Of a stretch of DNA of 59,676 bases, positions 14,485 to 57,381 are shown one piece after another (position 1 is the first letter of the stretch; every line of letters begins with the position of its first letter). The notes beneath the pieces are model-generated. The model ran no database searches and was not told the origin of the DNA. It was given only the letters and a program-made list of their open reading frames with translations. Position numbers and translations under genes: made by a program. The stretch comes from Zygnema cylindricum (Eukaryota > Streptophyta > Zygnematophyceae > Zygnematales > Zygnemataceae): contig JBBHKE010001302.1 of assembly GCA_037447655.1 (NCBI GenBank), positions 64,001-123,676 of the forward strand, in the 5' to 3' direction.

Positions 14485-14703
14485 TACACCATGTATTGCT
14501 ATTAGCATTAATGTTATTTTCGCCACTTCAATCAACTTCTCTCGGTGCACACATGCCCAAATTTCATTGGGAGACCGTCAATCGGAAGGTAACTTTTCCT
14601 TCTCGTCACAACAGACAGATTTACAATCTGACAAAATGTGCACAGTGAAAAATGGGTTCGAAGGGCGAAAGAAACATGAACTCTAATTGCAATATACAGT
14701 GTA
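14485..14703. mobile_element. MITE of the CACCGTGAATCGC family
   Basis: The left end TACACCATGTATTGCTATTA and right end TAATTGCAATATACAGTGTA are TA-flanked and imperfectly inverted. The interior keeps the family words cgccactt, cacacatg and aatcggaaggtaa. Confidence 0.7.
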
Positions 14704-23042: not shown

Positions 23043-24100
23043 TTAGTCACGAAGACCGGCATAATAAATGTGATGGTGAAATAAGGGACAAGGGAGAGGT
23101 TTGGTAAGAAAATCGGCAAGTTGAGATCCGGATGCACAATGAGAGAAGGAAACGGTGCCATCAAGAATTGTATCACGCGTAAAATGAAATTGTATATCAA
23201 TATGTTTCGTGCGTGTATGATGGATAGGATTTTTCATAAGAGCCAATGCCCCTTGAAAGTCACAAAAAATGGGGGTGGGAGAAGACGGAGGAAAAGAGAG
23301 ATCGGAAAGAAGGCGTCGGAACCAAATAGCTGATTTCGTGGCGGTAGTGCCGGCCATATATTCTCCCTTCGTTGAGGAAAGAGCAACCGTGTTTTGTTTG
23401 CGCAATGACCAAAAGACAAGACCACCACCTAAAGAAAAACATACACCGGAAATGGAACGACGATCGTCGAGTTGATTTCCCCAATCCGCATCGCATAATC
23501 CAATAATAGAAGTGCCCGGAGAGAAAGAAGGGGAGGAGTGCGAGGGAGGAGAAGTAAGGGAAAAAGTGAGGTGAAGATGTTTCGTTCCTTGGAGGTATCG
23601 AATGACACGTTTGGCGGCTTGGAGATGAGTTTGAGTGGCACAATCGAGAATTGAGACAAACGGCAATACATATATCCGGCCGTGTTCCAAGCATAGCATA
23701 TATCAATTTTCCAACAATCGACCGATAGAGTGAGTTTATATCTCCTTGGGCATTCCCATTGGAGGACTCTTTGGTGAGAGTGGTATTTGGATCAAGAGGG
23801 GTAGGCACCGAATCGCAATCGGACATTGCAAAATGCTCAATAAGATCAAGAATGTAGTGCTCTTGACTCATTTGCAAAATGCGTGCAGACCTTTGACGTA
23901 AAATAGTGATGCCTAAACAATAGTCAAGATCGCCTAAATCAGTCATAGGCCAATAGGATGAGAGAATGTCTTTTACCTGATTAATGGAGGACTTACTAAG
24001 ACCTGCGAAAATTAAATCATCTACGTAAATAACAATGATGATTAACTGGTCTCCTTTACCTCTAACATAAATCCTAGGATCAACACTGATTTCTTTAAAA
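23043..24100 (-). pseudogene. Copia RT C-terminus and RNase H
   Basis: The catalytic YVDDLIFAG motif is intact (about 24015-24040). The frame continues with DLGDLDYCLGI and the connecting YRSIVGKLIYA, then shifts at about 23700 into LCDADW, SSTKGEYMA and HTRTKHIDI, the RNase H signature order. RNase H removes the RNA strand during cDNA synthesis. One frameshift separates the two parts. Confidence 0.9.
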
Positions 24101-24102
24101 CC

Positions 24103-24660
24103 TTATTTAATTAATGCTGCGACAAGGGTTTGATGCCAAACTCTAGGTGCTTGCTTAAGACCATAAATCGACTTACGTAAATGAAAAACAAGGGTTTTGG
24201 TACCAGGGACTGTGTAACCAGGTGGTTGCTCCATGAAAATATCTTTTGCAAGACTACCATGAAGAAAAGCAGTTTTGACGTCAAGTTGCTGTAACTCCCA
24301 ATCATGAAGAGCTGCAAGGGACAAAATCGTACAGATGGAGTCAAACTTCGCGACAGGGGCAAAAGTCTCGTTGTAGTCAACGCCCTCTGTCTGTAAGTAT
24401 CCTTTAGCGACGAGGCGAGCTTTGTATCGGTCGATAGTACCATCTGCCAGCCTATTAATTTTAAAAACCCACTTGGAACCAATCGCACGACGATTTGGTG
24501 GGAGAGTACAAAGCGTCCACGTATTGTTCGTCATTAATGCGTTGTACTCCTGTGTAGCAGCAAGACGCCACTTGTCACCATCAGGACGTTTTAACGCGAC
24601 ATTTAAGGTGGGAGGATCTTTGACGTCGGCAAGGTTGGCGTGAGCAAGATTCTCGCGTTA
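24103..24660 (-). pseudogene. Copia reverse transcriptase, N-terminal half
   Basis: Typical blocks are IGSKWVFKI, YKARLVAKGY, LDVKTAFLHG and SIYGLKQAPRVW. A TAA at about 24103 breaks the frame just before the YVDD segment, and another stop near 24660 breaks it upstream. Confidence 0.92.
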
Positions 24661-25469
24661 TTTCCACGTAGGTTGGGAAAAGCGCGTACTTTGTCGTACT
24701 GCAAGCTGTTCGACAGGTGGCGTGAGAGGAGTTATTATGACCGAGTTACGTACCACACGTGCTGGGGACGTAGCTTCCAAAGGTTTTGAAATTAAATTTG
24801 TAGATGGAAGGACCGAATCGTCACCAGTGACAATATAATTTGGCGCGTCCAAGACCGTCGCGTCATCAGTGATAGGAAATTTTGTCGCTTGAAGGACCGT
24901 CGCGTCATCGCAGCTTGATGTATAGTGGGAGGCGAATCGTCGGTAATCGCGGAGCGTAACAAGGAAAGTTTATCGTCGGAATTGGAGGAAGAGACAAAAT
25001 CTGTGGAAGGCGTAAAAACTGTAGAAATATGAGATATGTGAGGGTTTGAAGGGCGCGTATTTTGGGATGGGGTCAAAGGGGGCGTTAGCAAGGTGGTAAT
25101 AGAATTAGAAGGGACAGTTTTGTACGGAGGGAATAAACTAGGTACAGGAGTAATGGGAAAATCAGGTAGAAGTGTACGTATAAGGGGAGTCTCATGAAAA
25201 ATAACGTCACGAGTGGTGACAATGCGATGAGAAGAGGGGCACCAAATACGATATGCCTTGGAATTCGGGGAATATCCCACAAAAATTCCTCGCATAGCTC
25301 GAGGACCTAATTTACCATTGGAAGGGGGAAGGATTTTGAAGTATGCTTCGCACCCAAAAATGCGAAAATGGGAGACATCGGGTTTAGTTCCATGCCATGC
25401 TTCAAAAGGAGTTTTGTTAGAGAGAGAAGAGGTAGGAGAGCGATTACGAATATAAGAGGAAGTTAGCAA
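24661..25469 (-). pseudogene. Copia integrase C-terminal region and linker
   Basis: It starts with the conserved YIRNRSPTSSL and TPFEAWHGTKPDVSH, then FGCEAY and RGIFVGYS. A variable Ser/Thr/Pro-rich linker follows. It is one frame off the preceding integrase segment, with the shift near 25465. Confidence 0.88.
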
Positions 25470-26899
25470 GGCTTCCGCCCAAAAATGGAAAGGTAAAGAG
25501 GCAAAATGGAGAAGAGACGAGACATGTCAATGAGAGTGCGATTGAGACGTTCGGCATCACCATTTTGTTGGGGAGAATGAGGAGAGGTTTTGTGATGAAT
25601 AATACCATGTGTAAGTAAAAACTTCGAAAACTCATTGGAAACAAATTCCCCCCCATTATCCGTGCGAATTGTTTTAATGCGAGACGACAAGTGATTTTCG
25701 ACAAACGTTTTAAAATGTTGGAAATGGGTAAAAACCTCAGACTTATGACGCATAAAATAAACATGTGTAGAGCGAGAAAAATCATCAATAAAAGTGAGGA
25801 AATAAGATGCGCCACTAAGGCTTCGGATGGGAATAGGACCGCATACATCGCTATGAATGAGATCAAGGGGAGCCAAAGAGCGAGAAGAAGAAGAAGGAAA
25901 AGGTAAGCGAGGCATTTTTCCAAGAATACAACCATGACAAAAGTCAATCTTGTTTTCATTAAAAATATCGATGCCATTTACAAGCCCTTTTCCAAGGGAA
26001 GCTAGACTAGCACCATTAAGATGACCATATCGAAGATGCCATGTCAAAAAAGAGGAAGAAGAAGGAGAATGAGCTAAAGAAGCATGAGCAATATCATTAA
26101 AAAAAATTAAAAGATATAAGTTGCCCATTCTAGTCCCACTACCAATGAGATCCTTAGAGGAGGAAAAGAATTGAACGTGGGATTCAGTGATGACACCAAA
26201 ACTCCCATGGCGTAAAGCCGAACTAGCCGAAAAAAGATTCTTTTTGAGGTCAGGTACGAAATAAACTTTGTCCAATATGATTGGACGAGAGGCGTGCGAA
26301 CCGGATTTAATATGCACCTGTCCAACTAGAGTGGAGGTTAGAATCATATAATTACCCAAATAAATGCGTAGAGGAATGGAAAGGGGAACCTCATTAAGCA
26401 TTGTATCACGTTGAAAACACATGTGATGAGAAGCGTCTATGTCAATTAGCCAATCAGAAGGATTACCTGATTGCAAAACAGCATACCCATAGTCCACAGA
26501 GGGAAGTGGGGGAGGTATATTTGGGACAGGTATAATTGCAGGTGACGCATATCCGATATTTTGGTTGGATTGTGGAATAACATCAGGTGAAACCGGCCAG
26601 TTTGAAAGAGGATAGTAAAAGGGAGGAGTCGTGTACCACGGTGGCGGTGGGCCGTACGGCAAATTGAAGTCGACCGCCGCGTGCGCCGCATGACCAGGTG
26701 GCGGCGGGTAGGCGTGGGGATACGACAAGGACTTTGGATTTGGATTCGGCGTAGTAAGTCCCCGTGGTCCCCCAACTGTACGGTCTTTTTCGAGTTTTCT
26801 AGCCAATGCAGGACACACGTCGATAACGTGGTCAAGCTCTTTGCAGTATTTGCAAAAAAAATGAGATCCTGTAATCGGAGGTTTTTTGGGAGAAGACAC
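25463..26899 (-). pseudogene. Copia zinc knuckle, protease and integrase core
   Basis: A CCHC zinc knuckle (CKYCKELDHVIDVC) comes first. The protease active site reads DIDASHH where the family has D-S/T-G-A-SHH, so the catalytic triad is damaged. Integrase follows with its HHCC finger (HLRYGHL, then CHGC), catalytic Asp in HSDVCGP, second Asp in RTDNGGEF and Glu in GDAERLNRTL, all kept. The segment is open for 478 codons. Confidence 0.92.
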
Positions 26900-26908
26900 A
26901 AAAAACGC

Positions 26909-31323: not shown

Positions 31324-31526
31324 TACACAGTGAATCGCTATTAGTGTTGATGTTTTTTTTCGCCACTTAAAACATCTTTTCTCCGTACACACTTGTCCGA
31401 TGGTGGATTTGAAAGTGGCAATTGAAAGGTAAGATTCTCAGCTTCCGATTGGCGATATCAAATTGATAATAAGACAAATTTGTACGGAGAAAAGATATCA
31501 TTAACCCTAATAGCAATACACGGTGT
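31324..31526. mobile_element. MITE of the CACCGTGAATCGC family (~200-bp subfamily)
   Basis: The left end is TACACAGTGAATCGCTATTA and the right end is TAATAGCAATACACGGTG, followed by TG instead of TA. The interior has the full nested palindrome: acttaaaacatcttttctcc, cacacttgtccga, and the mirrored gacaaatttgtacggagaaa. Confidence 0.8.
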
Positions 31527-31851
31527 GTTGTAGCGGTTTGTTCAGTTTAGTTCTTAGTCTATTTTATTTTGTACTATATTGTATTTTGCTTCGCACTATC
31601 GACACGATATCCATGTCGACCCGTAACGCACTTTTATTTACACCGTCGGTTTGGGACCGGTACGATACACCGTGTATCGCTAATAGGATAAAAAAAAAAT
31701 CTCTACTTAAAACATCTTTTCTCCATTACACACTTTCCGATTTTCAATTTAAGACCGCCAATCAGAATTTGAAAACGTTACCATTCAATCGCAACCGTTA
31801 GATCCACAATCCAACAAGTGTGTATAAAGAAAACATGTTTTAAGAGAAAAA

Positions 31852-32120
31852 AATAATAGTTGCGGGCGACCTGGTGCTTTGCACTTTGGTTGCTAAGGGT
31901 CTGTCGTTGTACATGTGGATCAATGGAGCGTTACAATTTGTCTAGGAGTTACAAGTACTCCTTCACGTATCAATCCGTTTACGATAGTGTACGGATATTG
32001 AGAACACGACAACGTGGCGTGATGTGACGGGATCGCACGCGCAAAAATGAAAAGTAAAATCTTGCAAATTACTCTACCGGTATTGATAACACGACATTTT
32101 GGCGTGACACTGTATTTATC
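31852..32120. repeat. Dispersed repeat, copy 2 (related to 20938-21480)
   Basis: It starts aatagttgcgggcgacctgg and shares ordered words with the copy at 20938, but is shorter and lacks some middle segments. Confidence 0.6.
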
Positions 32121-32764: not shown

Positions 32765-32948
32765 TTCCTTTTAGGAGAACATGTCAGGTGAGTGTGTATT
32801 GTTTTTCAATCTCAGCCGTCGATTAGCTTTCAGATTAACCTCTTCATGTTGGAAAGATGTCAATGGTAGTAGCGTTACATGGTGTAGTTTCGGTCCGTTA
32901 ATTATGTCTTGTCAGTTTGGGTCCAACAGTTTCATTTTATCGTTACTA

Positions 32949-33174
32949 TACACCGTGAATCGCTATTAGTGTTCATATTTATTTTTGCCACATAAAACAA
33001 CTTTTCTCCGCACACACTTGTCCGATTTTCAATTTGAGACTGCCAATCGGAAGCTGAGAAGCTTACCTTTCAATTGCAACCGTGGGATCCACAATCCGAC
33101 AAGTGTGTACGGAGAAATTTTTTTTTAACCCGAGAAAAATAGTTTAACACGATATTAATAGTTAGTCTTGTGTA
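32949..33174. mobile_element. MITE of the CACCGTGAATCGC family
   Basis: The left end TACACCGTGAATCGCTATTA is intact. The right end is degraded (attaatagttagtcttgtgta). The internal palindrome is well kept: cacacacttgtccgattt, with aatccgacaagtgtgtacgg on the other arm. Confidence 0.75.
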
Positions 33175-33424
33175 TCGGTAAAAAGACTTATGGCGATAAC
33201 ACCGATACCGAAAGTTATCAGTTATCGAACGGTTAGGTTCGGATATATCGCTCCGAAACCAACAAATTCTATATCAGCGAGAACTTTAAAATCATATAGT
33301 ATGCAAACAATAGTACTTTATAACATACTGTATTAAACTTTTGACTATATATAGCGTGGCATGCCACGTATAAGAATCTGTTCCGTATCTGTTTAACTGA
33401 AATTTATTACGACCAACGCAACAT

Positions 33425-35398: not shown

Positions 35399-35475
35399 TA
35401 AACCCTAAAAAACCCTGAAAACCCCTAAAACCCTAAAAACCCTAAAAACCCTAAAAAAACCTAAAAAAACCCCAT
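35399..35475. repeat. Interstitial telomere-like CCCTAAAA(A) array
   Basis: About nine imperfect units of accctaaaa vary in A-run length. It resembles plant-type telomere repeats but is short, degenerate and flanked by ordinary sequence on both sides, so it is not a chromosome end. Confidence 0.75.
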
Positions 35476-36475: not shown

Positions 36476-37543
36476 CTAAAACCAACACTCCCACTCGATG
36501 TCGGCTTCGATATTTGTTGCGCTCCTCGATTTCGTCGAATCCAAAAAGTTTGGGCGACGCTTCAATAATACTGTACCTGCGTAATCACGTCCGTACATTT
36601 TGTACCCTGCTAAATCAACAAAATATACGATTTGGTTAGTACTTAGAAAATATTGCATATCAAAATAATTTTGTCCGTTGGGACCACTTGTGGTCCGTAA
36701 AAATCTGGTCGCCCGTACGTGTACCGTGGCGATTAATATGTTGTACAAAGGAATTGCGCTGCTGGCGACTTCGTCTTTTGCTAGTGACTCATTAACCGGA
36801 TTACTTGACGTGTAATCCCTTTTGTGCGTCCGATTCTCAAAATCCAAGATTCGCGTAATTTTTGGTAAACTAGAATCGTCGATTTCACTGTCACGAAGTG
36901 AATTGATTCCATCGTCACGAATCGTTGCATGATCAAATTGTGGTCGCTCGAGCAAATCCGATCGTTCGATGCTTGAATTTGTGGCCGCGATGACGTTGCT
37001 CAAAATGTGCAACCGTACATCTGGTTCGCGCCATCGTCACTCTTTCACAAAGGTACTTGTATCGCCTTTGTCACATCCATATAGTGGGAGGTGCTCAAAC
37101 AACTCTGTACTTCTAGGTTTCAGATTTGTTTTCTTGAATTTTGCTCCTCTAATTTCTTCTAAGTCCTCTTCTCCTCTGCCATAGCTTAGAGTGCCATTAC
37201 TTAAACCTCCTCTACTACTTAGACAACCATGACCAAGAGTGTGTGTCTGTACGTTCTGACTTAGGTTCTCCTTTTCCTCTAAGCTGTCTGCACCCTTTTC
37301 TCTTCTTAATCCTTCAATCATGAGTTTGCCAAGGGACTTAGGGTTTCGAAATTCCTTCCCTTTTACCCCTACCACGCCTTCTGCTGCACATTCTGTGTGG
37401 CGGCTTTCCGTTGGCAGAGACCTGAGGCGTCTCCCAATTTGTCTTGCGGATTCTTGAGGCAAGAAGGACTTTCTTGCTCCTTGATGAGGTTCCAATGTGA
37501 AGCGTTTGATCTCCATTTCTCCTTTTTGTCGTGCATGTGTCAA
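36476..37543 (-). pseudogene. Unidentified 356-codon frame with one in-frame TGA
   Basis: One reading frame runs from 37543 to 36476, interrupted only by a TGA at 37037-37039. The first ATG is near 37516. The N-terminal half is basic and polar. The C-terminal half has mixed hydrophobic composition like a folded domain (for example YFDMQYFLSTNQIVYFVDLAG). It follows the PHD finger of the gypsy element on the same strand after about 190 bp, so it could be a 3' accessory frame of that element, a neighbouring element's protein, or a decayed host gene. I do not recognise the family. Confidence 0.45.
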
Positions 37544-37772
37544 ATAACGTGTAGATGCATGCGATGTTATCAGTTGTGCTCCACTTAAAAATTATGAAAA
37601 TATATTGTGAATGAAACAAAACATGAAAGAGAAAAATGAATAAATATAACGATAGGCAAGGTGATAGAAAAAGAAAGGGCAACGACTTAGCTGGTTATGG
37701 TTAGGGCGGTTTATTCCCCCCCTCAGCTCTTTAGCCGGCAGAGGAGCTGGCCAACACGACCGGAAGCTCGCG

Positions 37773-37907
37773 ACATCCGTGGCAAAACCAGTAACCATCC
37801 AAAACTGCCAACAATGGTGGCACCAAACACTCCATGTGAAACCCCTGATTAGAATGATCACAAAGTAACATGGTAGTTTCCCCGTTCGATCGATGACAAA
37901 AGGTACA
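37773..37907 (-). pseudogene. PHD finger at the C-terminus of the gypsy polyprotein
   Basis: The segment reads CTFC, then LLCDHSNQGFHMEC, PPLLAV and WFCHGC, fitting the C4HC3 PHD pattern with seven of eight zinc ligands. The fourth ligand is Ser (TCT) where Cys (TGT) is expected. PHD fingers read histone tails, often H3K4 methylation or unmodified H3. Here it is in frame after the integrase C-terminal domain, the position that chromoviruses use for a chromodomain, so it may direct integration to chromatin. Confidence 0.85.
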
Positions 37908-37909
37908 TG

Positions 37910-39040
37910 CCGTCCCTTCCGTAATCAACATCCGCATAGGATCCATATCCTGCGACAAATCTGGTAAGTAACATGGAGCACAATTCTTGGAGTGCTTTCG
38001 AAAAGTCCGTGTGTCCGCCCCTTGTAATCCCAACATTCTGTTCGAATCATCCTCTATTATCCGTAGGATGTGTGTAGAAACATCCGTGTCCAAAGTGTCA
38101 AAAGATTGCTTGCAAAGATAAACATAGTCTCCTACCCGATAGGGCTTCTGTTGCGGCCTGTAAATACCGCTTCGAGTGGTGGCAAACCAAAGTGTGTCCC
38201 GATGCTGGGCAATCTGCAAGTTATCAAAAGCCATGGGAATTTCACGGGCAAAAAGCAAAGCACGACAAGTGTGTTCTTCCTAAAAGATTGTGTCAGACAT
38301 CAGTGGAAGCGGAAAGCTTGCAACTTTTTGAATATTGCGACCGAGCAACGGTTGTCGCCCCAATAAAACATAATACGGGCTGAAATTAGCCAGACTACCC
38401 TAAACTGACATGCGATATCCCATGGTAATGTAGTCGAGGGACTCGTCCCAAACCGAAATGTGTTTCTCTAAGCAATGCTTACGCAAGGCACGCTTAAATG
38501 TCTAGACTGCCCGTTCAGCCAGGCCATCAGCCTGGGGTGATCTCGACTAGTACGTCGATGATCGATGAGAGCCTCATCAAGCATCTCTTGAAATTCTCCC
38601 CGAAATTCTGTACCTTGATTCGTAAGGACCTCGGCTGGGGCACCATTTCTCGTAAAGACATGTTTGTTAAAAGTTGCGGTGGTTAACTTAGCCGTCTTAT
38701 GAGGCAGGGCTACGACTTCTACCCACTAACTGAAATTTTGGATCATAATCATTCTATATTGTTTCCCTCTAGGTGAGATGGGAAAAGGTCCGGCCAGATT
38801 GACCAACCATCGTTAGAATAAACCCCTAATGTGCAGAGGTTGGAGAGTAGTCTGCCGATTAGAGAAAGAGGTTCAGAGAAGGTCACAGGTGGCACACTTG
38901 TGTAGAATAGCAGCGACATCAGCTTGCATTCCTGACCACCAATACCGTGCCTGAACTAGACTTAACGTCCGCTTGGTACCATAGTGACCAAGCTCAGTGT
39001 GAATCTACTCAATGAGAGAAAGACGCTCGGTAGGCCGTGT
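37910..39040 (-). pseudogene. Gypsy integrase (HHCC finger, core, C-terminal domain)
   Basis: The zinc finger has HTELGHYGTK and CATC. The core has VNLAGPFP (38798-38800 is Asn where the first catalytic Asp belongs), LTNQGTEF (38618-38620 is Asn for the second Asp) and GLAERAV with the catalytic Glu kept (38514-38516). The C-terminal YRVGDYVYL is an SH3-like fold. Several in-frame stops (TAG) and a frameshift near 38270 are present. Both Asp-to-Asn changes are single G-to-A changes in the coding strand. Confidence 0.88.
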
Positions 39041-39127
39041 AACGTGCTTATGGCTTTCGTCTGCCAACAACCGAACTAAAGGTCTTCCGAGCCAAAGGTA
39101 ACTTTTGGCCCTCTTTTTCACTTTCTC

Positions 39128-39907
39128 TTATTCCTTAGAGGTAGTACCGAACTTGAAGGTGTGGGAGGATAAGAAAAGAATGAGAGGCCCATCACGCCAA
39201 GGATTTGTGGCGGGACGGGGGTTCGGAATAGACGCCAGGCAGTAAGTAAGATAAGAACTCATTGACATGACGGGAACATCGTCGTCATTGAAATCCTGTT
39301 GAAGTCCGCTATCCGTTGTTCGGGGCAAAGGATTTCGGGAAATTCCGTCTGCGTTTAGACTAAGCAGACCGGGTCGGTGAATTATTTCAACGTCATATTC
39401 TTGTAAGATCAAAGCCCATCGGGCTAGCTTCCTGGAAAGCTTATCGTTCGTCATCAACCAATGTAAGGGCTGATGGTCAGTTAGGAGTGTGAAAGGTTTT
39501 CCGTTCAAATAATGGCGAAAGTGAACGACTCCCCAAACCACAGCTAGACACTCTTCTTCGTAGCTACTTTAATTTGATTCAGCTCTGCTCGCGTAAGCAA
39601 CTATGTGATCCTCTCCGCCCAACTCTCTTTGTGTCAAGATGGTAGCGATTTTGGGTTTCCCAAAATCAGTTTGGAGAGAAAAATGGAGTTTGTGATTGGG
39701 AGGACAAAAAAATGGAGCACTCGATAAGGCGGTTTTTAATTTTTGAAATGTGGAAATCTGATCGCGACCCCATATAAACGCCACTTCTTTCTTGAGAAGC
39801 TCGTTCAACGGAGACGCGATGGTACTATAATTAGATACAAACCTGCGATAATAATTAGCAAGTCTGAGAAACGCTCGCAGACTTGTGAGGTCCGTGGTAG
39901 CAGGCAA
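39128..39907 (-). pseudogene. Gypsy RNase H region
   Basis: It includes LRAFLRLANYYRRFV, the thumb/connection FIWGRDQISTFQKLK, the RNase H core (LQTDFGKPKIATILTQ, then LTDHQPLHWLM) and the tether IIHRPGLLSLNADGISR. A stop near 39568 splits it in two within the same frame. Confidence 0.92.
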
Positions 39908-39925
39908 TTTACTGATTGCCTATAC

Positions 39926-40764
39926 CTATGCTTCGAGAGGAGTGATCCCCTCAGCCGAGATAAAATGGCCAAGGTAAGGCACTCCCTCGGCTCCAAAGGT
40001 GCATTTCGCTGGATGACATTTTAATCCGACCTTTTTTAATTCAGTCAATACCCATTCGATGTGAGCAGCGTGCTCTTCAATAGTAGCCAAGGCAATGATG
40101 AGGTCATCGATGTGACATCTAGGAAACTTACAACCTCCAACAACGGAGTCCATGACTTTTTGAAATACTGCTGGAGCATTTTTCAGTTCGAATGGCATTA
40201 CGACCCATTCCCATCGGCCATCGCTAACCCAAAAGGCATTTTTATGCTGGTCATTTTCCTCAATCTCAATTTGATTGAATCCCTGACGGAGGTCAAAGAT
40301 ACTAAAATACTTTGCTCTGCCTACGTGATCAAATATTTTTTTGGTAAGAGGCATGGGATGACGATATTGAAGCGTTCTAGCATTTAGTTCACGATAGTCA
40401 CCACACATTCGACATTCAGTAAAATTACCTTCGGAATCCTTTTTCCGAGGCATGATAGTGCGAGCTGTGAATGTGGAGTCTAACCGATAGATTAGGCCAG
40501 CTTCGTCTAGTTCATCTCATCGCTTGTCTACCATTTCCAATTCAGTTTCTGACAAACGATTTTTCGGTTTAAATATCGGTGGTCATCTTCGAGATCTATC
40601 AACATCTTATAAGCTGTGTGACGACCCAAATCGTTCATAAAAAAGGCAAAGGCATCAACATTTCGAAAAACTAAGTCATTCATTAACTCTTGTTCGGCCT
40701 TTGTTAGATTGGTGCGGAATTCCCTGTTAGGAGCATCGGGATTTTCAGTTGTCATAGCTTCCAT
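39926..40764 (-). pseudogene. Gypsy reverse transcriptase
   Basis: Blocks seen are CGDYRELNART, the first catalytic Asp in SIFDLRQGF, MPFELKNAPAVFQ and the active-site box as CHIDD (Asp codons about 40103-40108), where most elements have YxDD. GHFISAEGI closes the domain. The N-terminal portion (40764-40528) is in the MTase frame, and a frameshift at about 40560 leads to the rest. The His for Tyr change would likely impair polymerisation if not natural to the family. Confidence 0.9.
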
Positions 40765-41046
40765 AGCTTGTGCAAAGGCTAACTACTCATTTGCGATAAG
40801 CGTTTGACCTAACGCGTAAGCTACAGGTGATTGTTTAAGGCAATCAACCGAATGATTCCAACTACATGTTGGAAAAGCAACACTCCAATAAGGAGTGGGT
40901 GGAATATGCATGAAACTTGCAGACTAGACAGCCGTGTATGCAGGGATAGACCAAGACATATGGTTAAGATTGAGGAAATCGTAGATAGTGATTTCCATTA
41001 CTGGTGGAATTGGAGAAGGAAAGAGGAAAAATTGAAATGTGGTCCC

Positions 41047-42110
41047 TTAGAGAGTGGGACCGAAAGAATTTCTTGATGCATTCCCTTGCCCAGCTGGTTG
41101 AGACGGATTTCTTTGAGAGTGGCGACCAGCTGCAAACCTAATACCTAAAACAAAAGACAAAGACTGAGGGTCCATGACACGACATAATAAAGTGCATCTT
41201 TGACGTTTTGTAAGACCAGTAGCGGCTATAGTGCCAGGAATGAAATGTATGAGGTGTTCTTCTTCCGCAGAGGTAGGCTCTTCGAAATCACCGGTATGAA
41301 TGTATCGGAGCATGCCAGGACCGTCATGAAAGTATGCATGTGAATGTGGGTAAGAAACTAATGTAGAAAGCACCTTGAGAGGTTGACGCGAGACATTCAC
41401 ACTGAAATTAGGGGGACACACCTTTTGCATGCAAGGCTGCACCTTATGAAAAGGAAGAAGGGAAGCATGAATGTCTGTAGGAGGAGGACAAACTAACAAG
41501 TTGGCCTCACGGAGTTTACCAATATCGATCAGGTTTGTCCATTTGGAGCGAACCCGGTGTGCTAGTGAGCCATGGCGAGCCACGTCAATAATAAGAGGCG
41601 GACCAATAAATTGTTCGATCCGTCCATAATCAGCCAAAACCCTAGGTCTTAGATCATTATAGGCTCCGACATTTTCGAAGATATACCCCATAGGATGATC
41701 TAATGTTTGTAGAAAATGCAGAATGCAAACCAATTCAAAGAATAATTTGGTTTTGGGATCGGCTAATCCGAGACCTTTCCCAGCTCAAGACATTCTTTGG
41801 CACTCTTATCCGCCAACAACTGGATCGATTGGACCAATATCTTGTAAATGATGGTTGCCCACAATCCGGATGTCTTGTGGGAGGGCAGTATGCATATGCT
41901 GGTGTGCGCATTTTGGTAACAAATGCGGGTATTGGGAATGCAACAAATCACAATGATGTATCTGTGCTTTCCGTGCTAAAGGATCAATCTCAACCGAATA
42001 ATAAAATCGGATTAATAATCGATTTCGCAAACATGCAAGAAGGGAAGTGCCTATTCCAACAAAGAGGTCCAAAATCACCAATCCGTTTGGATGAGGTTTC
42101 AATTGGATCG
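41047..42110 (-). pseudogene. C5 cytosine DNA methyltransferase domain inside gypsy pol
   Basis: Motifs appear in the family order. Motif I is DLFVGIGTS (AdoMet site, from 42069). Motif II is YYSVEIDPLA, motif III LPQDIR, then GPIDPVVGG leading to motif IV with its catalytic Cys at 41800-41802 (ECQ; the usual Pro before Cys is Glu). AGKG follows, then motif VI ENVG (about 41668-41676) and motif VIII RVRSKWTN (41532-41556). Motif X was not identified with confidence. Stops at 41806-41808 (TAA) and 41785-41787 (TGA) flank the catalytic loop and inactivate this copy. The frame is continuous with the protease upstream and the RT start downstream, so the domain belongs to the polyprotein. The product would transfer methyl groups from AdoMet to cytosine. 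Confidence 0.88.
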
Positions 42111-42429
42111 GATTCCAATTCATGGGAAGAAACCCAAAAGAGTCCGTAGGGACTGGGATTGTAAGAGAGACCGGAGAAAGTGGAATTGACAAGGTTTGGT
42201 CATAGATTCGGTCTAATTCCTTTGTATCTTTAAGAAAACTTGGGTCACTGAAAATTTCAGGCAAGTAAAAACTATCGGGCAAAATTTCTTCTGCTGACAA
42301 TGCATGAAATATTTCGGCCCCGAGCGAATTCCTTGAAAATGCAGGCATGGATGTGGACAAATTTGCCATCACAGGCATGGGCTTCCTAGCGGAAATTAGC
42401 AGAATGCAGATTTTGCATTCTGGGAAGTT

Positions 42430-42830
42430 AGTGGGCCTATAAGAAAATGTCTGATTATGCATGTCAACTCCACCTTCTACACGAAATATAACGTCCTGTC
42501 CCACTAGGCATTCATAGTCACTACATTTAGTGACCAGAGCGTGAACCAAGATCTACACAAAGTCTGTGGCCGTTCCGTTCTGGAACCTGAAAACAAACGG
42601 TTCCTTAGTGATTCCTACGACTGGCTCGGTTGTACCCGTTAATGTTAACAAGCGAGTAGAAGTGGACTGAAGCTTGTCCGGAGTTAGACCAAGTTTGAGT
42701 GCAAAGTTAGAGCCCTATATCACCGGCTTTGCACCCGTATCCATGAGAGGCAAGCAAGGGGTTATACCAATGATCAACAATGCACCCTTCTCGTTATCCT
42801 AAAAACTGATGTGAGGATCGAGGGAATTTC
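42430..42830 (-). pseudogene. Gypsy aspartic protease
   Basis: The active-site motif MDTGA starts at 42744, followed by the flap region and the C-terminal DYECLVGQDVIF element (about 42520). Both are in the MTase frame. Stops occur near 42716 and 42552. The enzyme would cleave the polyprotein. Confidence 0.8.
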
Positions 42831-43450
42831 ACTCCTCTATGGAAATAGGCTGAATATCAACAAGATTTTTGTGCAGCTGAAGTGCTTGTAACGCGGCACC
42901 TGCAGCTGAGCTATCGGAGGTAAAGGAGATAGGGGAGATTTTTAGTGAGTCGGAAATCATAGTGGATAGAATGCACAAGCGTTCGTTCGCGCGGTGTGCC
43001 TCATGTATAGTTCGATCCACTATGTTGAGAGCTTCAACCGCGATGGCTGAAACGGTTTCGGGCAAAGGAGGAGAAGGTTCTTTAGTGAATGACAAAGGAA
43101 TGCGTGTGTTAGTAGTTTTACCGTCACAGCTGTGATCGGTTCTACTTTTGTCGAACGTAGCCTCTCGTTGTTAAATAATGGAATCTCGTAAGATTCAACC
43201 TACCAACGTCGGCATGTGTAGAACAGTGCAAGCCATGCCAGTAAATTGTGGCTTCATTTGAGTCATGAAGGCTGCGAATTGTTCCTTCATCATAGCCGCC
43301 ATTTGCTCTTGCATATCTAAACGCTCTCTCTCTCTCTTCGAGATACCTTAGGTGGATTGGTGCCTTTTTTGTTGTTCTACAACCACAGTTGCATGCGGAG
43401 GACCAGCAGCAATAGTGGAAGTAGATATGAAAAACAACAGAAACTATCAA
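42831..43450 (-). pseudogene. Gag-like or linker segment upstream of the protease
   Basis: From 43095 the frame shared with the protease contains a helical, polar stretch with no recognised domain. Upstream of it, another frame (about 43380-43220) has a coiled-coil-like MQEQMAAMMKEQFAAF typical of gag N-termini. No zinc knuckle is seen here. Confidence 0.5.
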
Positions 43451-43479
43451 AGTTACTACTCAACAGCCAACTGTGAGCT

Positions 43480-44120
43480 AACACAAAATATGACTCAGAA
43501 AGCCAATATGCTTCAAATTTGCCACAGTGATACACAAGGTGGGCCCAAAAGCTGAATTTGTGTGGTCTCCATTGACCCACAGAATGAGCAGCCTATGTAA
43601 AGCCTCTAGGATAATATTTGCCCCTTCCACTTTCCCACTGAATAAGCGCCGCCCAGGCAAAAAAGTATTCTGACCACCCTCACCCCTTTGAGGACAAGAC
43701 TCCTATGAGTGAAACGCAAAAAGAATCACTGAATTTGCTCCCTTGAGTAGTAAGTTATGGCTGGTCAAAGATGACCTTTATAGTTACAAGCTCTCTTAAA
43801 GAGAGGTACCTAAATCTCACTAAGTCTTGGTCTGCCTAATCACGACTACCTACTACTAAACCCTAGTCTAATAGGGACACTATATAGTACAAGAAGGTAC
43901 AATAGGAGATGTACTTATTGTACGACCATTGTACGACATGGTCTACAAGGTGACACATGTGAAATCCGGAGCCATGGTTCCTCCTCCCATCTTCTCCGGT
44001 ATCAAATAATGTGGCGCCACGTGGCACCGCGTGACGCTATCTCCAAATGACGTCAAAAGCTCACTTCGCGTGGCGGCTACAATGTCGACCGTCCAATCAA
44101 AACATATTTTTCATGGTTCA
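43480..44120 (-). repeat. LTR-family copy A
   Basis: It shares ordered words with copy B at 57425-58200: ggtgggccca, cccacagaat, aaaagaatcactga, ggtcaaagatgacc, the gtacgaccattgtacgacat block, and a cgtggcg/ccgtcc block at the far end. A TATA-like ACTATATAGTG near 43880 reads in the minus direction. Copies differ at perhaps a third of positions by eye. Confidence 0.65.
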
Positions 44121-44223
44121 GATTTGCGTACATGCATGAATTGCTCCTTTTCGTTAGTCTGCTGTTAATTAGCTGTCGCGTTAATGTTGAAATATCTTTA
44201 AATCCAGCACGTGTATCGTTTCG

Positions 44224-44300
44224 TAGCGCCTAAATGGTTAAGGCGCTCGGCTATAGTGAATCAAGAGGTCGCTTGTTCAAATCTAGACCTAGGCAACATT
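44224..44300 (+). tRNA. Degenerate tRNA-like sequence (pol III A and B boxes)
   Basis: The D arm is well formed (GCGC stems around a TAAATGGTTAAG loop, matching the A box), followed about 35 bases later by a B-box-like TTGTTCAAATC. The T stem and acceptor stem do not pair, so this is a tRNA pseudogene or a tRNA-derived SINE head rather than a working tRNA. Confidence 0.45.
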
Positions 44301-44529
44301 TTAGAAAAATATCCTCTACTTCAAAATCTGCCACTTTCTAAATATGGCGGCAGCAATGGCGCGCCTTTGATCCTCACTCTTTTTCTTTAAAGCAAAACTA
44401 AAATAGAGAAGTGAACTATGAATTACCTTTTTTCAACACAAATATTTTGAGGTGATGAACCGTACAAAATGTTCCAGGTGCTTAGTCACAGTAGTCACTA
44501 AAGTCTAGTTGACTGTCGTACTGTAGTAT

Positions 44530-44660
44530 GAAGCACGTGAGTGCTTCGTCACTTGTGGTCCCACGTGAATCACGCCTCGTCACTAGTGGTCCCACGTAAA
44601 TCATGCTTCGTCACTTGCTAACCCATGTGAATCATGATTGTGGTCTCAGGTGAATCGCGT
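44530..44660. repeat. ~37-bp tandem repeat
   Basis: Three to four units of gcttcgtcacttgtggtccc plus acgtgaatcac occur, degenerating to the right. Confidence 0.75.
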
Positions 44661-45027
44661 CTGTCGACGTCTCTCAAAATCAATGTTCATAAGTCGTACT
44701 GTACAATTTAATTCAAAAATATCCAGACGTCTCTATTTAATGATTATACAAACATTCCGTACCATATACTTCCAAATTATCCGTATGAATCCAAAATAGC
44801 CGTAACGTATATTTTTCAAGGTATTCGGATCAAATTGCGTCCGTCTGATCTGGCGATTTCAATTGTCTGCTGCGTGAGGCATGTCGACGCCACTCTGTAA
44901 AACCTGCAAAGGTACAATACACTCTATTGTACTTTGGCTACTGTAACGCTGATAAAGGTAAGTCTATTTAGATAGTATTCTAAGTCTTTTTGGTCTACTC
45001 TATTTACTGAACTAAAGATTTCAAATC

Positions 45028-45760
45028 TCAACACTTCCCCGGTTCTTTAACTGGTTGAACCGGTTTTGCGGATCGAGCGGGAATGCCACCATTTTTAATT
45101 TGTTTCAGATAAAAAAATTCCCGGTTTTTATATGACAACGTTGGACATTGTGTCCGGTTTCCTTGCAATATGTATAGGTAACAGTTTTTTCTGGACACAT
45201 TCGGGCATGATGCCCCGTTTTCCCGCATCAAACATAAACGGTTTTCGAAGCAACAGGTGGGGTTCCCATGGCTAGGACTTTAGGGGGCCGGTTGTTAGGG
45301 CGAGGAATGTTCTATGGTGGAACAATCGGTTCTTTCGGGACCGCTTTAGGACTATCATGGGCTTCCCACCAACAATTTTGCATTTCGTATTCCACGGCAT
45401 GCTGGGCGGCTTGGTCGAAAGTGAACTTCAAGCCATACGTTTGAGTCAAGTGACTCTGGATAAACTTCTTAGACTGACTCGGAAACTATCCTACAAATTT
45501 TTGGACAGCTTCCGCATCCGACATTAAGTCCAGCAATGCTTCACGAAGAGCTTCCATACGAGCACGCATGGCAGGGGCAGTCTCTCGTGACTTCCGTTCC
45601 AAGTTCATTAACTCACGAACTTGGTCAGGGTTTTGCATACGGTATTCCGCTTGCAACATTTCAAACATGACAGAGAGCGGATCCAATATAGGGATAGTCA
45701 TCGCTGGTCGTGCTGGAATTCCAGCATGTGCGGCTATAGCAACTTGTAGATAATAAGGAG
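45028..45760 (-). pseudogene. Retroelement gag remnant with two zinc knuckles
   Basis: A capsid-like helical segment (45701-45486, for example QNPDQVRELMNLERKSRE) leads through several stops to two CCHC-type knuckles. These read CGKTGHHARMC and CKETGHNVQRC near 45240-45150. In both, the first Cys position is Tyr (TAT for TGT). It may be the gag of the MTase-bearing gypsy element, separated from it by LTR copy A, or part of another element. Confidence 0.65.
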
Positions 45761-46585
45761 TTATTAGGAGTTTGATACTTTGTGGTGTTTCTGTGATGAG
45801 GGAGGTTAGTGAAGATCATCTTTATATGATTAAGAGGTTAGAAGTGAGCGTTTTAGTCTTGAGGAAATTATGTAAGAAAAGTTCCCTTTGGAATATATTT
45901 TTTTTCTTGGGTTATATTTCCTGTGTGTTTTGTCTACATGTACATGGTATTTGCGGAAGTTTATTATTGTAAGTTTATTATTGTAAAGATCCTTTCAGTA
46001 TTACCAATGCATGGAGCAAACCAAAAAAAATTTAAAAATCATAAATTAACTTTGTTGTTTGTTTCAGTGTTACATTCATGCAATTTTTAAAATTTGTCTG
46101 AAAAAAAAGGTACAAGTCTTTAATAAAACACTACAGTTAGTTATTTTTAAAGAAAATTCTCATGTATATTGCCTTTTACAAAAGAATATATTTTTTGGAG
46201 ATCACAAGCCCATAAATGTATGTCTTTAAGAACATGAAAAAAAAGTTTTTTATGAACGGATTTTTATTTTTACAATTCTCATTCTTTTTGTACTTTTGGA
46301 CAACTTGCTGATCTAAAAAAAAAAAAAAAACTATCGGTTTGCTTTGGGAATATGAGTCTTCAAATTTTGTGGTGACTAGGAAATCTTTTTCTTTTGGGGC
46401 AGTTGAAGTCTGGAAATAAAAGTTATTCAGTCGAAAAAATTTCAGGTCCATTGTTTAGAGTTAAATTGCAATTTAAATAAAAGAAATAAGTATAAATTAA
46501 ACATTTACTTTATTTAAGGTAATGCTTCAGCTTTTCATGAAATGACTATCATGCCGTACGACGCTGTTAACTCACTTTAGTACTG
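45761..46585. other. AT-rich sequence, no gene seen
   Basis: Poly-A/T runs (46315-46330) and frames up to 91 codons without recognisable content. Confidence 0.4.
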
Positions 46586-46804
46586 TACACCGTGTATCGC
46601 TATTAGGGTCAATAATTTTATCGCCACTTTAAAACATATTTTCTCCGTACACACTTGTCCTATTTCCAGTTTCAAACTGCCTATCGGAAGCCGATGATGT
46701 TACCTTTCAATCACAACCGTCTGCTCTGGGAACCGATATTCGTGTACAAAGAAAATATGTATAAGAGACTAAAAACAATAACACCAAAAGCGATTCACGG
46801 TGTA
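46586..46804. mobile_element. MITE of the CACCGTGAATCGC family (well-preserved copy)
   Basis: The left end is TACACCGTGTATCGCTATTA; the right end is AAAGCGATTCACGGTGTA. Excluding the flanking TA, the outer 12 bases are inverted with one mismatch. The interior carries the nested palindrome (cacacttgtcc, then gtgtacaaagaaaat). The constant TA flanks suggest a TA target-site duplication as in Tc1/mariner elements. Confidence 0.8.
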
Positions 46805-55562: not shown

Positions 55563-56341
55563 TTAATGGCAGTTTAGATTCCCATGTGTTCTGAACTCCA
55601 CTGCAAACAGTCCTAAGCATAGCATTTCTTCCAGTGTACAATTCATCCTTTCTGTTTGTCCATCTGTCTGAGGATGGTAAGAGGTACTCATTTTTAATTC
55701 AGTACCTAAATTTTGCTGCAATTCTTTCCAATATGCAGATGTAAATTTAGAATCCCTATCACTGACTATAGACAGAGGAACTCCATGATGTCTGACCACG
55801 TTGTCAAAATATAACTTTGCAATATCTACAACTGAATGAGTAGTTTTGCAAGGGATAAAGATTGCCATTTTACTGAACCTATCGACTACGACCATGATAC
55901 TGTCATTCCTTTTAGATGTAGCAGGCAACCTGACAATAAAATCCATACTGATAGATTCCCACGGTCTTTCGGGAATATCCAAAGGTTTTAAGAGACCTTT
56001 AGGTTTTTGGGTACTAGGTTTACTCTGTTGGCAAGGGACACAACTTTCCACGTGTTTTGCCACCTCTTTTGCCATCCCAGGCCAAAACAATATACTTTGC
56101 AACCGACTAAGGGTTTTATCTCGACCTAGATGTCCTAAATGCTCATGAGCTTCCCGTAAAATTTGTTTTCTTAAGTCTCCGACTTCAGGAATGCATAATC
56201 TATCCCCAATTTGCAAATACAGTAAACCATCCTCTAGTCTTAAGTTTTTGACATGCCTCTCATTCAATAGGTCAGAATTCCCTCCCGAAATATTCTTGCA
56301 AATCACAGCAAAATAAGGATCTTTATCATAACCATTCTGTG
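55563..56341 (-). pseudogene. Ty3/gypsy integrase, intact core
   Basis: A linker DPYFAVI leads into the HHCC finger (REAHEHLGHL, then CVPCQQ) and the core with all three catalytic acids: Asp in SMDFIV, Asp in VSDRDSKF and Glu in DGQTERMN, the last two with the standard 35-residue gap. The frame is open for 248 codons. It ends shortly after the core, so the C-terminal domain is missing. No reverse transcriptase is present upstream, where it would be expected. Confidence 0.92.
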
Positions 56342-57381
56342 TGCTTTTCTCTCTTCCTCATACTACCGATACGGAGAAGCTCCAACATATCTTCATCCTT
56401 TTTCTCCTCTTCCGTTTCTTCCTCCTCATCCACATTCCAACTTCTAAGTTCCTCTAAACTAGGGCATTTCTCCATATAATGACCCGGTTCCCTACAAAAG
56501 AAGCAAACCCCCTTTTTCAAAACACCCATTTCTTTTCCTCTCCCTCTCTTTCCACCAAAGTTTCGATAAGGTCTACCTTTGTCTTTCTTCCTCTCATCAC
56601 GCTTCCGCTCGTCACCACCGTTCCTCTCATCACGCTTCCGCCAATCACCACTAGCTGTAAATGCATTCACCCTGTCACTTCCCCTACAAAGCTCCAAAGT
56701 GCTTTCCCTCACAAGAATTATCCCCATGGTAAAGCTCCAAGTCCATGAGGAGCCATCCATTGCCTGCATACGACAAATGACGTTTTCGTACTCATCTGGG
56801 AGTTTCACGAGTAGTGTAGTAATCTTCCTCTCCTCAGATTCTACATATCCCGCACTAGCAAGCTCAACATATAGCGCAACAATATCATTGCAAAACTCTA
56901 TCATGCTACCACCTTTATAAACATATGCATCTATTTCTTGTTTTACTAATTGTTGCCTTTGAATAGTCTCACTCTTATAAATCTGACTTAGTGCTTCCCA
57001 TATCTCTGAAGACTTCGTTAAGTTTATAAGAGTGATAGTTATGGACTTAGACACGTTTCTAAGTATGAGATGCTTTGCTATAGTGTTTTTATATTCCAAT
57101 ATTTTTCTGTCATTTTCTTCAATTTTAATCCCTACAAGTGGAACCATAGTCGAGAGCCTAGCTCCCCTCACCATTGTTGTTCCTTTTCCCTTCTCCCATT
57201 ATTCCCCTTCCATGGCAACGATTTTCCCTTCACCTTCCTTTGCATCTGAACTCCAGTTGATTTTCTCGGCAGCCCCTAATGATTCTCCATAGTGAGTTCC
57301 TCCAAAGCGCTGTGGACGACACCTCACTTGTCTCGAAACAATTCCCCATAAGTGCTTCTCGAAAAGCAATCCCTCCATCAT
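56326..57381 (-). pseudogene. Copia-type (UBN2) gag with zinc knuckle
   Basis: The main frame (57174-56326, 282 codons) contains EIWEALSQIYKSE, KLPDEYENV, a basic Arg/Asp/Lys-rich stretch and a CCHC knuckle CFFCREPGHYMEKC. An upstream frame (57381-57199) supplies the N-terminus with a stop between. Gag forms the particle and packages the RNA. It ends within about 20 bases of a gypsy-type integrase in another frame, so the copia protease-integrase-RT part is absent. Confidence 0.88.

Follow-up and report, generated by a model that had tools for sequence, protein, structure and literature searches.

A dead Ty3/gypsy copy in Zygnema cylindricum with a predicted DNMT3-class methyltransferase and a PHD finger in its polyprotein

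Here, we present an analysis of a retrotransposon copy in a 59,676-nt stretch of DNA from Zygnema cylindricum (the window, meaning the whole stretch that was analysed). The interval 45761-37740 on the minus strand is almost certainly a dead LTR-type Ty3/gypsy copy of the KnitGypsy-Dnmt3 lineage. Its domains, all read on the minus strand, follow each other in the order gag, two zinc knuckles, aspartic protease, C5-methyltransferase, reverse transcriptase (RT), RNase H (RH), integrase, and PHD finger. The pieces were placed by tblastn with the related protein P0003 as the query, alongside a Pfam scan. The gag piece (45351..45761; frame -2; 42% identity to P0003, E 1.5e-22; one in-frame stop) is followed by two CCHC zinc knuckles of gag (45135..45227) that are seen directly in the translation. 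The aspartic protease (42433..42846; frame -1; 41% identity, E 2e-23; four in-frame stops) has its DTGA block at 42730-42753, and the C5 cytosine methyltransferase, of predicted DNMT3 class, occupies 41062..42180 (frame -1; 40% identity, E 2e-73; two in-frame stops). Downstream lie a linker with the N-terminal edge of RT (40537..40770; frame -1; 36% identity, E 8e-10; no stops); RT, RNase H, and the integrase core (38531..40579; frame -3; 54% identity; nine in-frame stops), with a Pfam RVT_1 match at 39926-40516 (E 1.1e-24); and the C-terminal part of the integrase with the PHD finger (37740..38537; frame -2; 55% identity; three in-frame stops). The PHD finger itself lies at 37773-37907 (Pfam E 1.9e-8); this match and the order in the relatives bear out an earlier note, made from the letters alone, which had put a PHD finger at the opposite end of pol from the methyltransferase. 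The same note had the methyltransferase in one reading frame with the protease and RT. This is correct for the protease, the methyltransferase, and the piece before RT, all of which are in frame -1, but not for RT proper, which is in frame -3, or for the end of the integrase and the PHD finger, which are in frame -2.

The copy is dead, with 19 in-frame stops over the mapped pieces, which are spread over three frames, and with Ser in place of the fourth zinc ligand of the PHD finger. No LTR or terminal repeat pair, LTR-type or DIRS-like, was seen around the element, an absence that decay may explain. A search of the element for a primer-binding site and a polypurine tract yielded nothing convincing, and an Rfam search of the window gave no match. 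The observed/expected ratio of CpG is 0.82 in the element, 0.73 in the methyltransferase, and 0.98 in the whole window; because another gypsy piece at an unrelated position in the window is lower still (0.51), no CpG depletion that could mark self-methylation stands out in the element. Compared with P0003, ∼1.5 kb of extra, non-coding-looking DNA (43400-45135) separates gag and protease, and a 31-base tandem repeat lies within it at 44542-44636. Just beyond the PHD end, two adjoining ORFs of 186 and 184 aa (36476-37591, minus strand) have no Pfam match. Elsewhere, the window contains a Ty1/copia element with integrase and RVT_2 (23043-26908, minus strand), a gypsy-type integrase fragment adjoining a copia-type gag ORF (55563-57198, minus strand), a foldback-like self-complementary repeat family (14485-14702, 31324-31853, 32932-33186, and 46586-46804), and at 35400-35467 a short array of the 9-base unit AAACCCTAA, which we take to be close to the plant telomere repeat.

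The methyltransferase is recognized by the PF00145 profile at 41047-42552 on the minus strand (E 1.4e-7; 31.7 bits, cut-off 22) when the sequence is read in a single frame with stops written as X. The break sits in motif IV, and as a result neither stop-free half is matched by Pfam on its own at E<=1. Searched against the six frames of the window, a profile from six relatives scored 303 bits at the methyltransferase locus; the sole other row listed in the window had -3.6 bits, and the maximum over 200 peptide shuffles was 2.5 bits. In the usual motif numbering, motif I lies at 42046-42069, motif II at 41983-42000, motif III at 41863-41880, motif IV at 41788-41823, motif VI at 41665-41682, and motif VIII at 41533-41565, and IX/X-like blocks follow down to 41158. 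Thus, motifs I, II, III, IV, VI, and VIII are present in the order claimed before, but motif IV is interrupted by two in-frame stops.

With the RT-RH-integrase piece as the query, 345 proteins matched, of which 120 were listed; the relatives P0001-P0017 come from these listed matches and, together with the contig L029, make up the 18 relatives considered here. L029 (CADCWO010000201.1) is the strong one of two confirmed hits among 46 pattern matches in genome contigs to A2, a profile built from four relatives. It is filed in the cyanobacterial MAG AVDCRST_MAG81; its content is eukaryotic, and it is probably a contamination. Protein searches with the methyltransferase region as the query gave no match at E<=1e-3 among 6279 and 7008 candidates. 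Viral contigs had no match to the window methyltransferase; against A2, 59 pattern matches led to 28 loci (best E 3e-13, 32% identity), some of which supplied the outgroup of the methyltransferase tree, and against the integrase-PHD alignment A4, none of 107 pattern matches was confirmed.

The relatives establish where the methyltransferase belongs. P0003 (2358 aa) has the complete order in a single frame, with Pfam calls for protease, methyltransferase, RT, RNase H, integrase, and PHD finger, and in P0006, P0007, and P0015 of Klebsormidium nitens, the methyltransferase lies directly before RT and in one frame with it. P0001 starts within the methyltransferase and P0004 at its very end. L029, which is cut by the contig boundary, has a gag-protease-methyltransferase frame of 1162 aa (open at the 5' end) and an RT-RH-integrase-PHD frame of 1047 aa. 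The shared slot in P0003, P0006, P0007, P0015, and L029 confirms that the C5-methyltransferase is an integral domain of the Ty3/gypsy polyprotein, as had been suggested from the window. By contrast with these proteins, P0016 and P0017 have the methyltransferase between RNase H and integrase, not before RT. P0016 is an open frame of 2212 aa that lacks the block with motifs IV and VI, and therefore catalysis appears to be dispensable in at least one branch. Altogether, a whole or partial methyltransferase is present in 9 of the 18 relatives (P0001-P0017 among the matches listed, plus L029). No methyltransferase was seen in P0002, P0005, and P0008-P0014, which are predicted proteins that start near RT, six of the nine being too short upstream of RT to be informative. 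The remaining three, P0009, P0011, and P0012, have 297-335 residues upstream of the RT YxDD motif and no methyltransferase match; the methyltransferase ends 246 residues upstream of this motif in P0003, 303 in P0006, and 326 in P0007. Because the three proteins extend past the position at which the domain ends in P0003, this branch may lack the methyltransferase. P0009 also has ∼220 residues more than L029 between RNase H and integrase, with no methyltransferase match. In P0028, a gypsy polyprotein that does not belong to the group, RNase H and integrase are separated by a PHD finger.

Based on its sequence and on the modelled fold of the intact relative L029, the window methyltransferase is assigned to the DNMT3 class. 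Among solved structures, the closest sequence matches of the window domain are DNMT3A (E 2.5e-10), followed by DNMT3C and DNMT3B, with DRM2 at 5e-4 and HaeIII at 1e-3. Similarly, A2 scored up to 82.7 bits against DNMT3 chains, 36 against DRM2, 45.5 against 4onj (which we take to be a plant DRM), 35 against HhaI, and 30-32 against DNMT2-type enzymes, and it matched no chain named DNMT1 at E<=0.01. An AlphaFold2 model of the L029 domain (8 rows) had a mean pLDDT of 72.6 and a pTM of 0.78; all 50 listed of its 177 fold matches at E<=0.001 were DNMT3 chains or complexes, with TM scores by target length up to 0.79. Motif I precedes motifs IV, VI, VIII, and X in the window and in the relatives; this order is linear and unrearranged, and therefore the enzyme is not a DRM. 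The catalytic Cys of motif IV is retained in the window, L029, P0003, P0006, P0007, P0015, and P0017, and the RxR of motif VIII in all six of these relatives. The Pro of motif IV is retained only in P0007, P0015, and L029 (GWPCQ) and is replaced by E in P0003 and P0006 (GWECQ) and in the window (ECQ) and by S in P0017 (GWSCQ). Because P0003 and P0006 also have GWECQ, the E in the window was most likely inherited rather than a product of decay. The ENV motif is changed to EHV in P0015 and to ENA in P0017, and P0015 has a gap following motif I.

In a tree of RT-RH sequences from 36 chosen rows, a single group of 19 rows comprises the window, P0001-P0017, and L029 (UFBoot 100/SH-aLRT 99), and within it the window sits with P0001-P0005 (100/99). 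The same group (16 rows, SH-aLRT 100) was recovered in an RT-integrase tree of 115 rows, retained by length from 122 matched rows, from which P0009, P0016, and P0017 are absent. Among the members of the group are proteins of K. nitens (P0015) and of the liverwort Calypogeia fissa (P0010), the latter too short to show the presence or absence of the methyltransferase. It had been proposed that the slot between protease and RT marks a distinct lineage; this is not upheld because P0015 of K. nitens has the same slot and clusters with the window by RT-RH. The methyltransferase tree has 10 of 29 other loci, from phages and bacteria, as its outgroup; the nine element domains are set apart from these (100/100), and the window joins P0003 and P0001 (100/98). 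This tree includes no cellular DNMT3, and it therefore neither dates the capture nor proves that it was single. Good support is limited to 4 of its 16 inner branches, and the rows of the window and P0016 are long. The trees conflict over P0006, which is paired with L029 by RT-RH (91/92), whereas its methyltransferase groups with those of P0017 and P0016 (87/90 and 84/53), whose RTs fall elsewhere. Because of this placement, the few supported branches, and the long rows, an exchange of methyltransferases within the lineage is possible. The placement of the window in the RT-RH and methyltransferase trees makes a separate capture in each host less likely. As read from these sequences, the simplest history would be a single early capture, after which the domain shifted within the polyprotein and may have been exchanged.

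The PHD finger is a regular part of these elements. Pfam calls it in 14 of the 18 relatives (P0001-P0017 among the matches listed, plus L029); P0006, P0010, and P0015 stop short of its position, and P0007 has a Cys-rich tail there without a Pfam call. Its eight zinc ligands are invariant in all 12 aligned rows. Among its solved relatives (60 of 82 listed) are CHD4, PHF12, UHRF1, KDM5A/B, PHF21A, ATXR5, BAZ2A/B, and AIRE, many of whose PHD fingers bind unmodified H3 tails.

In L029, the gag-protease-methyltransferase and RT-RH-integrase-PHD frames are in the same phase and are parted by a single stop, UAG-CAA-UCA (L029:3489-3497). This is an exact match to UAG-CARYYA, the readthrough context of tobacco mosaic virus. 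Because CAR-YYA codon pairs occur at only 8 of 2208 places in the L029 ORFs, a chance origin of this context appears unlikely, as judged from this one contig. The window has no UAG-CARYYA motif between methyltransferase and RT, and no stop interrupts this stretch in P0003, P0006, P0007, and P0015. Should the stop in L029 prove to be leaky, Gag-protease-methyltransferase would be the main product and RT-integrase-PHD a minor one; the enzyme would then be a major component of the particle rather than a trace, which bears on the question of whether cDNA is its substrate.

Altogether, we consider it probable that the window holds a dead copy from a lineage whose living members would combine a self-methylating writer with PHD-guided insertion. 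In a living copy, the methyltransferase would be carried in the particle together with the cDNA and would mark the new copy, either as cDNA or as a fresh insert, de novo, so that it would reach the host genome already marked as silent DNA. The PHD finger of the integrase would guide insertion to chromatin with unmodified histone H3 tails. An element bearing its own reader and writer of silent chromatin may thus trade activity for low harm and long residence. From L029 only, we propose that the methyltransferase is co-produced with Gag and that RT-integrase-PHD arises by readthrough of the leaky UAG. As for self-methylation being the main role of the methyltransferase, we are evenly divided. 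Methylation of element copies, the role that the earlier note suggested, is possible and agrees with the self-methylation of retrotranscribed DNA proposed for retrotransposon DNMTs in the main text of de Mendoza et al. (2018, PMC5890265); the window copy itself is broken. A more detailed history is rather doubtful, namely, a green plant and algal lineage with a Gag-level DNMT3 writer before a leaky UAG and a PHD reader, in which the capture predates the K. nitens case, the writer moved from before RT to before the integrase and died in one branch, and each new copy is placed in silent chromatin, and marked as such, by the element.

Three other explanations were weighed against this one. The window alone, with its decayed copy and no LTR pair found, is compatible with a chance neighbour, i.e., an ordinary gypsy element hit by the insertion of a host DNMT3 gene, a retrocopy, or a different element; however, the relatives refute this reading by their shared slot, with the methyltransferase in one frame with RT in P0003, P0006, P0007, and P0015 and in phase before the single stop in L029. 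The nine element methyltransferases also group against the 10 phage and bacterial ones (100/100), and that of the window with P0003 and P0001 (100/98), and we give a chance neighbour practically no credence. That the methyltransferase instead targets host DNA or competing elements, e.g., by silencing the surroundings of an insertion or rivals, is quite unlikely. The PHD finger could put the integration complex onto chromatin, and a Gag-level supply as in L029 would exceed the enzyme need of one cDNA, but we found no sign of trans action here, and an enzyme enclosed in a particle would, by reasoning, meet its own cDNA first.

It is also unlikely that the domain is retained for a non-catalytic purpose such as nucleic acid binding, polyprotein folding, or as a spacer. 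This would fit P0016, otherwise open but missing the block that holds motifs IV and VI, as well as the changes of the motif IV Pro to E in P0003, P0006, and the window and to S in P0017 and those of ENV to EHV in P0015 and ENA in P0017. However, the Cys and RxR are retained in L029, P0003, P0006, P0007, P0015, and P0017, with 39-45% identity to P0003 in the four that were measured. Moreover, between L029 and P0003, the methyltransferase (45% identity) is more similar than the protease (33%) or gag (25%), although less so than the part from RT to PHD (53%).

How does this methyltransferase- and PHD-bearing lineage compare with known systems? KnitGypsy-Dnmt3, as described in the main text of de Mendoza et al., is a DNMT3 carried by Pol in a gypsy LTR element of K. 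nitens; it is under purifying selection, and the authors regard it as having been acquired independently in the K. nitens lineage (PMC5890265). The window resembles it in that an unrearranged DNMT3-class methyltransferase is part of a Ty3/gypsy Pol, and P0015 of K. nitens resembles the window in having the methyltransferase between protease and RT and in belonging to the same RT-RH group. We infer that P0015 is a copy of KnitGypsy-Dnmt3; the main text of PMC5890265 gives no KFL gene names to match to it. The window differs in being broken, in having ECQ rather than PCQ in motif IV, in having a PHD finger (the word PHD is absent from that main text), and in that the reported DIRS-like repeats were not found in it. 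When expressed in yeast, the DNMT3s of SymbioDIRS retrotransposons caused CG methylation, and the KnitGypsy-Dnmt3 domain gave no detectable methylation, a result that the authors term inconclusive (PMC5890265). The dinoflagellate SymbioDIRS-Dnmt3 and SymbioLINE-Dnmt likewise carry DNMTs (DNMT3 in DIRS) within a retrotransposon frame, and SymbioDIRS has two domain orders, comparable to the P0003-type and P0017-type proteins here; they differ in belonging to other classes (tyrosine recombinase or LINE), and the main text reports that no relationship to gypsy elements was found (PMC5890265). A 2025 paper (PMC12344493) also describes streptophyte and dinoflagellate retrotransposons that host DNMT3s, there named Copia and DIRS. 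Our literature search on PHD fingers in gypsy elements, KnitGypsy, and further cases, whose coverage left out most subscription journals, returned no other report.

The cellular DNMT3A/3B/3C enzymes are the top sequence and fold matches of the element domain and share its linear motif order. The element domain differs in that identity in the fold alignments is ∼20%, in being embedded in pol, and in that no PWWP is among the Pfam matches of the members scanned. Chromoviruses are gypsy elements with an integrase chromodomain, and the window lineage resembles them in closing its integrase with a chromatin-reading module. However, the window lineage has a PHD finger in this role; none of the scanned group members has a chromodomain call, and the PF00385 proteins among the listed RT-RH-integrase matches that entered the trees all fall outside the group. 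The presence of a PHD finger beside the methyltransferase suggests that one mobile element came to both read and write silent chromatin. Thus, the element has an integral DNMT3-type domain in the published slot, and the lineage is wider than published and has a PHD finger in most members that extend to the end of the integrase. New here are the wider spread, the PHD finger, the changes of the motif IV Pro, the second position of the domain, and the readthrough-type stop in L029. Because some branches have an intact methyltransferase, some an altered one (ECQ, SCQ), and some a broken one, and because the domain occupies two different positions among them, the question of why a transposon methylates DNA becomes testable by comparison, and a published single-host case becomes a lineage with several branches.
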